Positions 35,901-41,918 of a DNA stretch of 64,000 nt are shown here, one piece after another. Each line of letters begins with the position of its first letter. Position 1 is the stretch's first letter. The DNA lies in assembly GCA_029858255.1 (NCBI GenBank), contig JAOUFJ010000003.1, positions 124,001-188,000 on the forward strand, given 5' to 3'. Made by a program: the position numbers and the translations under genes. The notes below the pieces were generated by a model. It did not search any database. It was not told the origin of the DNA and saw nothing but the letters and a program-made list of their open reading frames with translations. Source of the DNA: a candidate division WOR-3 bacterium (lineage in GTDB: Bacteria; Hydrothermota; Tepidihabitantia; SM23-42).

Positions 35901-38900
35901 ATGACTAAGTGTAATTACTGTAATTATTCAAACAATCCGGACTATGCACAGTTCTGCACAAATTGCGGTGTAGCGTTGAAGACTGAAGGCAGCGGGGTCG
36001 CCGAATCGGAGCGCCTCAGGCTACTGGGAGGTGAGCTCAGACTGCTTACTGTCTTCTTCGTCAATCTGACCGGCATTGAGAAACTCATCAAGAAAGATAC
36101 CTACGCAACGACAAAGCAACATGTTCAAGAGTTCTTGAGTAGCATTGAAGACATCGTCGAGGAATACAACGGGACATCGAACCGTATCATCCCCGACTTC
36201 CGGATACTCGGTATTTTCGGTGCACCACATGCACACCATGACGATGCTCTCAGGGCAACGCGGTGTGCAAGTCGCATAAGAGATTGGTGGTTGAAGACAA
36301 AGCAGGAATCGAAATTCTTCAAGGATATCGATCTGCGAATCGGACTGAATACTGGAAGGGCCTTCTTTGGTTTCGTCCTCAAGGAATCGCCTTTCCTTAC
36401 CGTTATCGGTGACACGATCAATATCGCTGCCCGTATCACCGAAATAAGCCAGCACAGCGAAATCCTCATGACCAGGCCCACCTATAACGCGGTGCTACGG
36501 CATATCGATGCAGAGCACATCGGCGAACAAACGGTCAGAGGGAAACAAACTAAAGTTGACATCTACCGCCTGAAGAAAATCAGGGCAACACCGCGTGTCT
36601 TTGAACCCCAGAGAATGCCGTTGTTTGGCCGGGAAGCGGAGTTGAATAAACTACTCGACCTCGCTCAGAAGTCGATCCGCCATGCACCGGTCTACTGCAT
36701 CCTCAACGGACAAATGGGCATTGGAAAAACAAGGCTCAAGGAAGAATTTGAAGTGCAGTTGAATAAGAGCGACAAATGCAGTTGCTTCGAAACAAACTGC
36801 TCGGTCGATGCTCAATCGCCTTATCACCCTTTCCGAACCCTTTTGAGAAATATGCTGCAGCTGCATGAACTTGATGGTCAGGATATCACAACCAAACGCC
36901 TCGACGAGATATTCGCTCAGCAGAACTTCAATCGTTCACTGGCAAAAGGCATCAAGCACTTGCTCCTTACCGATATCGGGCGGCTGCAAAGTGACGAGAT
37001 ACGCATGGTCAACGAAGAGATCTATGCATCAGTGCGCGATATCATCAAGAACGAATGCCGCAACAAACCACTTGTGCTCATTTTTGAGGAATTCGGTCAA
37101 GCCGACATCATGTCAAAAGAACTCACCATATATCTGATGACCGAATTAGAGAACGAACCTGTGATGTTTCTATTGATCAATGCTCCAAATCAACACTTTG
37201 AAGCCATGTCCGTGCAACTCGAGAAGATCGACCTGAAACCTCTGCCCAAACACGACGTCCATTCTTTGATCCGACACATCCTGGGTAAGGTTGATGACGA
37301 CCTTGCCGACTTCATCTACCGGGAAGCTGGCGGAAACCCGCTTTTCACGATCGAGGCGATCCGCAATACACGCCGTAACAAGATCATCAAGCAAACATCG
37401 GGTAAATGGTACCTTTCAAAGGAACAGACACTTGTTTTTCTGGACGATCTATATGGGCTCGTAATGTCCACGATCGATTCCCTGGCTTCCGACCCGCGGT
37501 TGATCGTCGATTACGCCTCGGTCATCGGCTACCGCTTCAGCCTCCGTATTCTGAGCGAACTACTCACCAGACCTGACCTGAAAGAACATCTCGATTATCT
37601 GATAGCAGAGGGGTACATCGTGCTGTCGTCGGACGGTGATGATCCGGTGTACATCTTCCGCCACAACCTGCTCAAAGATGCTGCTTACAACGTCCTGCCG
37701 GTGAGAAAGCGTAAGGAGATCCACAACAAAGTGGCCAATCTGCTTGAGCAAGTCTATTCTAACAATCTTTCATCTTTCTACGAGGAGGTAGCACGCCACT
37801 ATCTTGCGTGTGACCGGTACGGACGGGCCACTAAGTATTTCAAGCTCGCAGGCGACAAAGCCAAGAATCTGTACGCAATCGACCAGGCTCTTTCATTCTA
37901 CGAACAGGTGCTTGATATCAAAAAGAAATTCGGCACCGAATTACCCAAACCCGTTTACCGTGAGATAATGCTCAACTTGATAGACATATACGAGATAAAG
38001 GGCGATATCAACAAGATGGAAAAAACTGCGAGGGAGAAACTGTCCGAAGCGTTGAATGATAATGATCAGAAAAACGCCATGTTATTCGCCGAACGTCAGG
38101 CATACGGGCTCATCCTGCTCAATAGAGTTGAAGAAGCGGAAAAACTGCTCACCGCGAGCATTGAGAAGTGCGGCGACCAAATGGTGGAAATACTGCCGAT
38201 ACTCTATGCTGATCTGGGGATGTTATATGCCAACAAGTATGAGTACGATCAATGTCTGCTTAACTTCAATCTCAGTTGGCGCACCGCCCGTGCAAATAAC
38301 ATCAAAGAAGCTGAGATACTTTGCCTTCTCAATCTCTCAAAACTGCACAAGGGATTGGGTAATTACGAAAAGGCCATCGATTATCTACAACACGGCCTGG
38401 AAATTCTCGTCGACACCGAAGACATCAGAAAAAACATCGAACTTCAGTATCTGATTGCCAATATCGACTATGAAATATGGAACATCGAAAAAGCAAAAAA
38501 CGTGCTAAGCGAGTGTCTCATGACAGCGGATTCGATTGGCAGCTTCGATGCATATATCAGATCCGCGCTCGATCTGGCGCGCATCTACTCACTCAACGGT
38601 GAACCGGGGCACGTCACAAAGTACTTGAAAGATGTCGATAAAAAGATATCCTTCCTTATCCGTGAGAGCTTGCTTGCCGAGATCAATCTCAAGAAAGCGC
38701 TGGTCTATTATAATAATGGAGATTGTAAGAAGGCTAATGACTACGTGATTAACAGCCTGCGCATCGCGGAGCGGTTGAATCAACATGAAATCGAGTTTGA
38801 ATGCTTCGAATTGCTTTCGATGATCGACGAGAACCATAACATGGAAAATGCAAGGAGAGCTTTGCGCCTCGCCGAGGAGATGAAATTGCCACCCCTGATT

Positions 38901-39077
38901 GCCTCTGCACTGTACCGCATGACAATGATCTTTATGGAGAAGAACGACATCGAGCGTGCCCGGCACCATGGAAGAAAAGCGCTGCTTGTTTACGATGACA
39001 TTAAATCGAGGCTGAGCGACGCAAATCGGCAACATTTCATCAAGAAACCGGAATATACAAAATTGCTGGAGATATGA
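35901..39077 (+). CDS. Zinc ribbon - class III cyclase-like - AAA ATPase - TPR signalling protein
   Basis: Domains of this 1058-residue cytoplasmic protein: a zinc ribbon (Cys4, Cys7, Cys19, Cys22), a class III nucleotide cyclase-like domain (about 45-225), an AAA/NTPase module (about 240-500; P-loop GQMGIGKT at 270-277), and many TPR-like helices to the end. In the cyclase domain the first metal Asp is Asn55 ('TVFFVNLTG'), while the second-site Asp99 is present but with a one-residue insertion after it. The transition-state pair Asn174 and Arg178 ('IGDTINIAAR') is intact, the adenine-lysine position is Arg95 and the partner position is Thr167. So alone it should bind metal poorly, but it could supply the substrate/transition-state half of a heterodimeric site. 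It is followed one base later by a second cyclase-like gene. Confidence 0.88.
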   Translation: MTKCNYCNYSNNPDYAQFCTNCGVALKTEGSGVAESERLRLLGGELRLLTVFFVNLTGIEKLIKKDTYATTKQHVQEFLSSIEDIVEEYNGTSNRIIPDFRILGIFGAPHAHHDDALRATRCASRIRDWWLKTKQESKFFKDIDLRIGLNTGRAFFGFVLKESPFLTVIGDTINIAARITEISQHSEILMTRPTYNAVLRHIDAEHIGEQTVRGKQTKVDIYRLKKIRATPRVFEPQRMPLFGREAELNKLLDLAQKSIRHAPVYCILNGQMGIGKTRLKEEFEVQLNKSDKCSCFETNCSVDAQSPYHPFRTLLRNMLQLHELDGQDITTKRLDEIFAQQNFNRSLAKGIKHLLLTDIGRLQSDEIRMVNEEIYASVRDIIKNECRNKPLVLIFEEFGQADIMSKELTIYLMTELENEPVMFLLINAPNQHFEAMSVQLEKIDLKPLPKHDVHSLIRHILGKVDDDLADFIYREAGGNPLFTIEAIRNTRRNKIIKQTSGKWYLSKEQTLVFLDDLYGLVMSTIDSLASDPRLIVDYASVIGYRFSLRILSELLTRPDLKEHLDYLIAEGYIVLSSDGDDPVYIFRHNLLKDAAYNVLPVRKRKEIHNKVANLLEQVYSNNLSSFYEEVARHYLACDRYGRATKYFKLAGDKAKNLYAIDQALSFYEQVLDIKKKFGTELPKPVYREIMLNLIDIYEIKGDINKMEKTAREKLSEALNDNDQKNAMLFAERQAYGLILLNRVEEAEKLLTASIEKCGDQMVEILPILYADLGMLYANKYEYDQCLLNFNLSWRTARANNIKEAEILCLLNLSKLHKGLGNYEKAIDYLQHGLEILVDTEDIRKNIELQYLIANIDYEIWNIEKAKNVLSECLMTADSIGSFDAYIRSALDLARIYSLNGEPGHVTKYLKDVDKKISFLIRESLLAEINLKKALVYYNNGDCKKANDYVINSLRIAERLNQHEIEFECFELLSMIDENHNMENARRALRLAEEMKLPPLIASALYRMTMIFMEKNDIERARHHGRKALLVYDDIKSRLSDANRQHFIKKPEYTKLLEI

Positions 39078-39078
39078 T

Positions 39079-39726
39079 ATGAACTGTGACAATTGCGGCA
39101 GAGAAATCAACGAACCACTGCACTTCTGTCCGCACTGTGGTGCTGCATTGCATGAAGGGGTAACCTCTCCGTTTCAGGACCTGAAACTCACGTTTCTACG
39201 CGTTGATCTCTCTGGCTTCACTCAGATGAGCGAAGCCATGATCGCAGAGGATGTAATGGCAGTACTCAATGAGATTTTCGGGATCTTCGTACAAATCGTT
39301 GAATCGAATAAAGGAACAATATACCAGGTGATCGGTGACGAGATAGTCAGCATTTTCGGACTCGATCTCGAATCGGGATTCGCGCCCCACATGGCAATTC
39401 TGACCGCTGAGGAGATGTTCAACAGAGTATACAATTTCAACAAAAAAGGAACCCTCAAGAGTCCCATCGGGCTCAAGGTCGGTGCCGAGATCGACTCGGC
39501 CTCGATCTTTGATATGCAACAAGACCTGAGAAATGCTCTGATACTGACCAAGGGCTTCCGTAAGAGTCAGATATTGCAGAAGAATGCATCGAGCAACACG
39601 ATACTGGTCGGTGAAAATCTATATAAGGTGACCAAAGGTTTCTTTTCTTACCGTGAAGTAGGTGAATTCGTCGAAGAATCGTTCGGCGTCAAGGCGTATG
39701 AATACAAATTGAAATTGAAGGCCTAA
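39079..39726 (+). CDS. Zinc ribbon - class III cyclase-like protein (metal-binding half)
   Basis: The 215-residue protein has a zinc ribbon (Cys3, Cys6, Cys17, Cys20) and a cyclase homology domain. Both metal-binding aspartates are in place: Asp43 in 'LRVDLSGFTQMSE' and Asp87 in 'IYQVIGDEIVSIFG'. The other half of the site is degraded: the adenine lysine position is Gln83, and in the Asn/Arg segment ('QDLRNALILTKGF') Asn152 can be aligned but the transition-state Arg is Leu156. This complements the preceding protein, which keeps the Asn/Arg pair and lacks the first metal Asp. Gene spacing is 1 base upstream and a TAATG overlap downstream, so the three products are made together. Confidence 0.82.
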   Translation: MNCDNCGREINEPLHFCPHCGAALHEGVTSPFQDLKLTFLRVDLSGFTQMSEAMIAEDVMAVLNEIFGIFVQIVESNKGTIYQVIGDEIVSIFGLDLESGFAPHMAILTAEEMFNRVYNFNKKGTLKSPIGLKVGAEIDSASIFDMQQDLRNALILTKGFRKSQILQKNASSNTILVGENLYKVTKGFFSYREVGEFVEESFGVKAYEYKLKLKA

Positions 39727-41918
39727 TGGAAGAGCACGTTTTAGCATTATATAATGATTTGCTCAAACTTCTGAGGATGGGGATATACCTCGCCCGGACC
39801 TATCCGCACGGTCATCCGTCGATGAAGCACACGACGCAGCGCATTCGTGAACTCTTCGATGAAATCCGGATTGAGAAAAGAGTCGTTTCCATCGTCGTAA
39901 TCGAAAGTGTTTTGAGGATCGAAGATGCGAGATTCGATTCAACGAAAATGTCGATAGTGAAATACCTCATAGCCCGATTTCAACAGCTGGGTGTTAAAAG
40001 CATAACATTCAACACCGAGGTATCGGAGAGCGATCTCTATGAGTTCTTTACGGTGATGGCACTGCAACCATCAGACATCGAGGATTATGGCGACGTCACC
40101 GCAGTAATGCAGACACGACACATCACCGGGATCAAAGTCAATATCTACCGCGTCGGCGTTGTTTCTTCTGATCTGGAGGCGAGGGAACTCGACTGGGAGA
40201 ACTTCCTCGAATCCATAATCACTGCAGAGGTGCCCAAAACAGAAGAAGAACGTTTAAAGGAATTGGGCAATTTCCTCGGCGTGCTTGGTGTGACTGCCGA
40301 TGATACGATAGAAGCCCAATCCGACAAAATCCTTGCCGGACTCGAGAAGCTTGCCCTCATGGTTGCCGACCGCTACGGCGAAGAGAGATGGAATGAATAT
40401 TCACTGGTCTTTTCAAGACTATTAGCAATACTCTCTCCTTCGGTCAAGAAGAACATTGTCAGATATCGCAGCGAAAACGCGAAACTGGCAGAAATGTTCC
40501 GCAAACTTGTCCCGACAATGGATGATGAAGACATAGTTGACATCGTGATGACGATCGCCAAGAAAAAGGGCGGCAACACGGAACAAGAGATCGTCGACAT
40601 ACTACAGAACGTGTCCGGTAACAAACTACCCGGCATTCTGACGACGCTCGGAAACCGTGCACCCGATTATTACACGAGCGAATTTGTCGATCGGTTGATG
40701 AAACGGGTAAAAGCAGGGAAAAGTCCCGAAGCAGCAACCAAGTATGCGATCAAAAACCTTGAGATGGAGATGAAAAGCCACTTTCCATCCCTGCGTGGTG
40801 AATCTCCTGAAGAACGCGTCAGTGCCGTTGACGCCCTCGTTGAATTCGCCGACCGTCTGTTCGACGCTGGCAGTATCGAACTAGTATGTCTCATGGCAAA
40901 CCGGCTTGACGCGATGGCAGAAGCGGAATCGGACCTCAACACTTTTGCCAAGGCGATCGACGCGATGAAAATTCTCTATATCAAAGCGCGCGATAAGAAC
41001 AATACCGAAGTGATGGAATTCATCGCCAAGAAATTTGCCAAGTACCTGATGCGTAAAGATACGATATTTCTGGAGCGTAAACGCTTTGTCATAAAAGCAA
41101 TTGGTGAAACAAGAGACCCCACCTACATACCCGAATTATTGTCTTCATTGTGGGCAGCCGGCACTTATGGCGAGGCAAGGGAATCGTTGATTGCGCTGGC
41201 CGACCAATCCGCGCCACTGTTGGTGCAAACGCTCAGGGAGACCGACGACTACTCGGTCAGGATGAAAATTCTGGATATCCTTAAGCGAATGAGCGACAAA
41301 GCTATTCCTGAAACCCTAAACCTGCTTAAGGCCGAGGAGTGGTACGCGCGCCGTAATGGCATCTTCATCCTGGGCGAGCTCAAAGCAGATTCAACGGTGG
41401 ACGAGATCGGTGCGTTGATCAGAGAGGACATCGAACAGATACAGCTCGAAGTGGTGGCAAGTCTGGGCAAAATTGGCGGTTCACAGTCAAAGGAGTATCT
41501 CAAGAAAGCGCTCAACAGCAAATATCCGCAGGTCATCCTCGAAGCAATGAAATGTCTCGACGCGGATGATTTCAAAAGCAGGCTGCCTCAAGTTCTTCAA
41601 TGGCTTAAAAGGAACACAAGAATACCCAACGATATCAATGAGCACTTCCGTGTTAATGTAATCCAGGCTCTTGCTAGGAGCAAAGAAGAATCAGTAGTCA
41701 ACGCACTGATTGGCATTGTCAAAGAACGCGCATTGTTCAAAGGTAATATGCTACTTCCTACCAAGGCAGCCGCGCTCAATGCGCTTGCGAATATTGGCAC
41801 GACAAAAGCCATGCAGACACTGCAGAAAGCGGCAAATAGCCGAAATCGGTATATTGCCATTACAGCCCAAGACGTTCTCCAGCGCATGACATCCGAATCC
41901 GAGGAAGTCGAGAGCTAG
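39726..41918 (+). CDS. HEAT-repeat protein of the cyclase operon
   Basis: The 730-residue protein has no signal peptide. Its N-terminal about 170 residues start with 'LLKLLRMGIYLARTYPHGHPSMKHTTQRI', a helical segment with a Tyr-Pro-x-Gly-His-Pro motif that also opens various bacterial HEAT and HD-domain signalling proteins. The middle is helical, and HEAT-type repeats are clear from about residue 455 to the end ('IPELLSSLWAAGTYGEARESLIALADQSAPLLVQTL', 'RNGIFILGELKADSTVDEIGALI', 'LEVVASLGKIGGSQSKEYLKKAL', 'KAAALNALANIGTTKAMQTLQKAA'). HEAT proteins are scaffolds. Its ATG overlaps the cyclase stop (TAATG), so it is likely a partner or target of the cyclase pair. Biochemical role unknown. Confidence 0.82.
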   Translation: MEEHVLALYNDLLKLLRMGIYLARTYPHGHPSMKHTTQRIRELFDEIRIEKRVVSIVVIESVLRIEDARFDSTKMSIVKYLIARFQQLGVKSITFNTEVSESDLYEFFTVMALQPSDIEDYGDVTAVMQTRHITGIKVNIYRVGVVSSDLEARELDWENFLESIITAEVPKTEEERLKELGNFLGVLGVTADDTIEAQSDKILAGLEKLALMVADRYGEERWNEYSLVFSRLLAILSPSVKKNIVRYRSENAKLAEMFRKLVPTMDDEDIVDIVMTIAKKKGGNTEQEIVDILQNVSGNKLPGILTTLGNRAPDYYTSEFVDRLMKRVKAGKSPEAATKYAIKNLEMEMKSHFPSLRGESPEERVSAVDALVEFADRLFDAGSIELVCLMANRLDAMAEAESDLNTFAKAIDAMKILYIKARDKNNTEVMEFIAKKFAKYLMRKDTIFLERKRFVIKAIGETRDPTYIPELLSSLWAAGTYGEARESLIALADQSAPLLVQTLRETDDYSVRMKILDILKRMSDKAIPETLNLLKAEEWYARRNGIFILGELKADSTVDEIGALIREDIEQIQLEVVASLGKIGGSQSKEYLKKALNSKYPQVILEAMKCLDADDFKSRLPQVLQWLKRNTRIPNDINEHFRVNVIQALARSKEESVVNALIGIVKERALFKGNMLLPTKAAALNALANIGTTKAMQTLQKAANSRNRYIAITAQDVLQRMTSESEEVES

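Follow-up and report, generated by a model that had tools for sequence, protein, structure and literature searches.

A putative class III nucleotide cyclase with its active site divided between two adjacent genes of WOR-3 bacteria

Can bacteria divide one nucleotide cyclase active site between two proteins encoded by neighboring genes? In class III cyclases one subunit provides two aspartates, the other Lys, Asp or Thr, Asn and Arg, as in the C1/C2 pair of adenylyl cyclase and in soluble guanylyl cyclase, sGC (PMC3591389). Prokaryotic members typically homodimerize (PMC4886424); a review states that bacterial class III adenylyl cyclases form homodimers (PMC9552081). Heterodimers with a split site are described as a later, eukaryotic step (PMC9552081; PMC4886424). 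The literature searched, with partial coverage, yielded no bacterial two-gene heterodimeric class III cyclase. The question is raised by a window of 64,000 nucleotides from a genome of candidate division WOR-3/Stahlbacteria, in which an earlier note claimed that two adjacent cyclase-domain proteins have lost complementary catalytic residues.

The genes are tightly packed. The stop codon of the large gene (TGA, 39075-39077) is separated by one base from the ATG of the small gene at 39079, and a third gene starts, with its ATG at 39726, inside the stop codon of the latter (TAA, 39724-39726). An ORF check of the window reproduced the coordinates of both reading frames and the one-base gap reported before. 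Each protein possesses an N-terminal zinc ribbon, the four cysteines of which are invariant in the alignments. Both proteins belong to the class III superfamily by profile (PF00211, Guanylate_cyc; E 1.3e-12 for the large, 2.8e-6 for the small one). Structure predictions by AlphaFold, when compared with the PDB, indicate the class III cyclase fold (small protein, pLDDT 87, top matches CyaB and CyaC; residues 1-233 of the large protein, pLDDT 83, top matches CyaB and Cya2). Pfam detects no membrane domain in either protein of the window. The unit of small, large and HEAT-repeat protein carries no name in the family libraries searched.

Table 1. Features of the locus (positions are those of the window).
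Feature	Position	Strand	Basis
Large subunit, 1058 aa: zinc ribbon, cyclase, AAA_16, TPR	35901..39077	+	ORF, Pfam
Zinc ribbon of large subunit, Cys4, 7, 19, 22	35910..35966	+	invariant in alignment A2
Large cyclase domain, C2 type, about residues 45-228	36033..36584	+	PF00211, E 1.3e-12
Asn55, first metal-Asp position, Asp lost	36063..36065	+	alignment
Arg95, position of the base-binding Lys	36183..36185	+	alignment
Asp99, second metal-Asp position	36195..36197	+	order-wide invariance
Thr167, Asn174, Arg178, substrate and transition-state half of site	36399..36434	+	invariant in order
AAA_16 ATPase domain	36618..37169	+	PF13191, E 1.7e-16
TPR region, approximate	38199..39002	+	PF17874/PF13424 matches
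Small subunit, 215 aa: zinc ribbon and class III cyclase, C1 type	39079..39726	+	ORF, PF00211
Zinc ribbon of small subunit, Cys3, 6, 17, 20	39085..39138	+	invariant in alignments A1, A4
Asp43, first metal aspartate, kept	39205..39207	+	invariant in 25 orthologues and deep set
Gln83, in place of the Lys; Asp87, the retained second metal aspartate	39325..39339	+	alignments
Residues 157-170, T-K-G-F-R-K-S-Q-I-L-Q-K-N-A	39547..39588	+	order-specific motif replacing Asn/Arg helix
Third gene, 730 aa, HEAT-repeat protein	39726..41918	+	PF13646, E 2.4e-22

In the small protein the alignment confirms Asp43, Gln83 and Asp87 as they had been read. The assignment of the transition-state Arg position to Leu156 was wrong; a gapless alignment places it at Ile165, the Asn position at Arg161 and the Thr position at Leu154. 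All three, Thr, Asn and Arg, are thus gone from the small protein. A search of the PDB with the small-protein profile finds the C1/alpha chains of mammalian adenylyl cyclase and sGC, and it returns no match to IIC2 or sGC beta-1, in agreement with a small subunit of C1/alpha and a large one of C2/beta type. Within the window's taxonomic order the motif T-x-G-F-x-K-S-Q-x-L-Q-K-N-A is strongly conserved, with T157, G159, F160, L166, Q167, N169 and A170 invariant in alignment A1. This stretch would line the pseudo-site of a heterodimer, and a role in ligand binding is possible.

The large protein presents the complementary picture. The calls of N55, R95, T167, N174 and R178 are all correct. The first metal aspartate is indeed lost, its position being occupied by N, S, Q or G across the order and by Asp in one genome only (G012); a correction is due for the second, which is kept as D99, invariant in the order and lost in deep branches. 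Arg95 is correctly placed at the lysine position, yet it is not a conserved replacement, as R, K, Q, Y, V and E alternate there within the order; deep branches have Lys. T167, N174 and R178 are invariant throughout the order. In addition, a P replaces the G ahead of Asp99, and the hairpin contains one extra residue.

We consider it likely that the large and small proteins make up a class III cyclase, IIIb-like and of the Thr type, which is an obligate heterodimer and has a single composite site; it is the Thr of the large protein which suggests type IIIb. The small protein would act as the C1/alpha half and contribute the two metal-binding aspartates. The large cyclase domain would be the C2/beta half, with Thr, Asn and Arg, and Lys in deep branches, for holding the base and stabilizing the transition state. 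Of the two sites of such a heterodimer one should be composite and active, the other a degenerate pseudo-site, and neither homodimer would have a full site. The residue complement supports the claim, made at the outset, that only a heterodimer would possess a complete site. Activity probably depends on an encounter of the two proteins. The AAA/TPR region of the large subunit may be a STAND-like sensor which controls subunit assembly, probably by bringing the halves together or apart, and the HEAT-repeat protein would be a third, co-conserved component. This reading rests on the sequences and the fold, on the complementary pattern of kept and lost residues, on the joint presence and joint loss of the genes, and on purifying selection; from these we infer heterodimerization, catalysis, a product and a sensing step.

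How general is this division of residues? Orthologues of the small protein are present in 33 genomes, i.e., in 25 of the 27 genomes of the window's order and in eight outside of it (G027, at L079, as well as G076, G091, G092, G094, G095, G122 and G123). All named, full-length relatives of the small protein are labelled WOR-3/Stahlbacteria with one exception labelled TA06; phyla outside WOR-3 were covered by one motif scan. The two genomes of the order without a small orthologue are G002 (67% complete, with an assembly gap at the locus) and G019 (53% complete). A short match at a contig end in G109 was excluded from the counts. Both metal aspartates are kept in the small protein of every one of the 33 genomes. 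The large partner adjoins the small gene in these genomes, or the contig ends there. Within the order the spacing could be read in 24 genomes and ranges from -4 to +3 bp (in G022 the contig ends at this point), and the HEAT gene follows the pair throughout. An apparently solitary large gene and a split large gene, in the single-contig MAGs G002 and G007, respectively, were set aside as likely artefacts. The genes are broken at runs of N (G007:C1 2117096 and 2132881; G002:C1 231970), probably through scaffolding faults, and were for this reason left out of the loss counts.

Within the order, residues differ between genomes where the small protein would have Thr, Asn and Arg and where the large one would have its first Asp. 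Most lost positions vary like ordinary columns. By contrast, the two aspartates of the small protein (D43, D87) are invariant, as are T167, N174 and R178 in the large one. The large protein of G012 is an exception because it has both metal aspartates; its homodimer would lack Lys alone. It either regained or kept the aspartate of the first position.

The deep branches show a cleaner split than the window's order. All eight genomes outside the order carry the trio, arranged as large-small-HEAT or small-HEAT-large in distant branches; in G092 the small gene sits on a different contig, at its end. In G076, G091, G092, G094, G095 and G122 the large protein has kept K, T, N and R and lost both aspartates; the small protein has both aspartates and in none of them the Asn/Arg pair. 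The large gene of G123 is truncated at its start, where the contig ends; T, N and R are present in the part which can be read. G027 is intermediate, with G-W-D-T-N-K in the large and D-R-D-L-L-R in the small protein, i.e., the transition-state Arg of the large subunit is Lys and the small protein keeps an Arg. An alignment of 15 divergent small proteins (A4), which are 20-32% identical to its first row, has both aspartates among its 13 invariant columns. In the deep set of large proteins (A5) T and N are invariant and R is nearly so. Finally, in G093 (95% complete, from the genus of G094 and G095) the HEAT gene is present at the corresponding locus, and large and small genes are both absent.

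The complementary losses are thus borne out in 33 genomes of several branches, with G012 (both aspartates) and G027 (Lys for Arg) as exceptions. The genes occur together wherever this can be judged and were lost jointly in G093. Orthologues which stand alone and complete, or pairs in which the complementary residues are missing, were looked for, and the claim withstood the search. The system had been presented as one of two genes; the large/small pair is indeed conserved, but the unit is a trio with the HEAT-repeat protein. In the full tree the small proteins form a clade (100/96) and the large proteins a weak one (76/97). When catalytic columns and long branches are removed neither grouping is stable, so that the split may have had one or several origins in the phylum.

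The most serious alternative, although we regard it as rather unlikely, is a pair which dimerizes without cyclizing. Its composite site would bind nucleotide and metal and serve as a sensor or dimerization switch for the AAA/TPR protein. Such a view accommodates the drift of the Lys position in the window's order, the P for G ahead of Asp99 with the extra hairpin residue, and the Lys for Arg in G027. Yet between them the two proteins have kept all metal and transition-state positions, G027 excepted, and deep branches have also retained the Lys. Furthermore, bacterial cyclases without this Lys, Rv0386 and Rv1900c, are reportedly active, which counts against a non-cyclizing pair.

For the reading favored here, an obligate heterodimeric cyclase, the residues are distributed as follows. 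Against it stand the free Lys position of the large protein in the window's order and the residues of G027 and G012, and the invariant T, N and R of the large protein could be partly structural. The two metal aspartates come from the small protein in 33 genomes, and a large protein has both by itself in G012 only. The large protein, and not the small one alone, carries the transition-state Asn and Arg, the latter being replaced by Lys in G027. Of the base-binding pair, Thr is invariant and Lys is kept in deep branches and has drifted in the window's order. Lys and Thr together suggest ATP as substrate in deep branches, and formation of cAMP from ATP is there most likely. Within the window's order, where this Lys is not constrained, the sequence does not fix substrate specificity and the product is uncertain.

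That the two proteins are separate, degenerate pseudo-cyclases, and their complementarity a coincidence of independent decay, is quite improbable. These genomes do contain some incomplete cyclase domains which stand alone: among 41 other domains from genomes of the same taxonomic class, chosen from search hits and not at random, 31 have all six residues and 10 are incomplete. Rv1359 of Mycobacterium tuberculosis is a reported incomplete example (PMC3961136). Against decay stand the dN/dS values of 0.03-0.07 between near relatives, with dS near saturation, which rule out pseudogenes. The same complementary division is maintained in branches which are about 20-30% identical, and the genes are tightly linked and lost together. 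Because 31 of 41 other domains are complete and dN/dS is low, the complementary loss is more than chance. Least probable of all is a pairing of either or both subunits, not with each other, but with some complete cyclase present in the same cell: a further complete cyclase does exist in G000 (C11, L117), but large and small genes are strictly adjacent and lost together, and their pairwise distances correlate more tightly with each other (r 0.95) than with those of the HEAT protein (0.78 and 0.69).

The putative heterodimer has relatives in layout. Mammalian membrane-bound adenylyl cyclases likewise have a single catalytic site, with aspartates from C1 and Lys, Asp, Asn and Arg from C2, and a degenerate pseudo-site. 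However, their C1 and C2 reside in one membrane-bound chain, whereas the WOR-3 pair comprises two soluble proteins from two genes, is of the Thr type and has zinc ribbons and an AAA/TPR sensor. A cyclase of the mammalian type was rejected, as the ORFs are separate and six-helix membrane domains are absent by Pfam. The sGC alpha and beta subunits share with the pair the two genes and the distribution of key residues between subunits; homodimers of sGC catalytic domains are inactive and the mixture is active (PMC3591389). Yet sGC is eukaryotic, has H-NOX/PAS sensors and GTP-specific residues, whereas the WOR-3 pair is bacterial, uses AAA/TPR and is devoid of H-NOX. Two soluble chains and different sensors place the pair outside both groups. 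NeoR/RGC rhodopsin cyclases are obligate heterodimers as well (PMC8815786), but they are fungal membrane rhodopsins, and the cyclase domains of RGC1 and RGC2 keep all catalytic residues.

Among bacteria, the large paralogues from the same genomes, sAC-like CHD-AAA-TPR cyclases, have the same order of cyclase, AAA and TPR and often a zinc ribbon; unlike the pair, nearly all keep the six residues and need no partner. The nearest bacterial precedent in the literature found is Rv1359, a small cyclase-domain protein judged incapable as a homodimer (PMC3961136). However, it lacks both the Arg and the first aspartate, and for want of the latter it is no clean C1 half; nor is a complementary partner known for it. 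Its neighbor by locus number, Rv1358, is presumably a cyclase/ATPase/LuxR protein. Pycsar defense, in which a PycC cyclase is accompanied by a TIR or TM effector, was dismissed, since weak PycC matches arise via the cyclase domain only and the neighboring gene, kept across the whole order, encodes a HEAT protein. Bacteroidetes matches (L080-L100) were rejected as pairs: they are single proteins of greater size, with Gln in place of the Lys and with Asn and Arg kept.

Several other cyclase loci in these genomes deserve mention. In G011 (L120 768-8109) two large cyclase-AAA-TPR genes are adjacent; the first of them has Asn in place of the first aspartate and the other is complete. A further split may be arising here. 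G022 and G018 have a second small cyclase without zinc ribbon, D-R-D-N-D-L, with aspartates only (L104 1-729, L110 4277-5128), and no partner gene was identified beside it at the locus. A family of cyclases of about 205 aa has Gln for the transition-state Arg (L105, L106, L107, L109, L111); a conserved 313-aa gene precedes the one in L105 and likewise a related Ala form, that of L108.

Effectors for a cyclic nucleotide are at hand. CRP-type cNMP-binding domains, three in G000, are also present in all 12 other genomes tested, so that an effector is available in 13 of 13; other cyclases are found in these genomes as well. As to gene neighborhoods, genes of IMP/GMP synthesis recur beside the trio or its HEAT gene, e.g., G027 has purH and a guaA-like gene there, G076 has purH and G015 guaB (IMPDH), and HEAT paralogues adjoin guaA in many genomes, G000 included (L079 2612-10080; L167 3778-10000; L069 10003-11463; L160, L144, L145).

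A wider proposal is tentative, and we would put its odds somewhat short of even: a native bacterial heterodimer from two genes, conserved with a HEAT protein across several WOR-3 families, which arose independently of eukaryotic C1/C2 and sGC alpha/beta, is switched when the AAA/TPR sensor subunit assembles with the small one, and is possibly coupled to the biosynthesis of GMP/IMP. A divided active site is a layout known from animals, and the unit described here is found in uncultured bacteria. If the pair is indeed a natural two-gene heterodimer, bacteria too have evolved this way of dividing the site. It would then offer a small soluble model for the regulation of catalysis through a pseudo-site, a question of the forskolin type, and a naturally split cyclase reporter, the activity of which would read out protein assembly.
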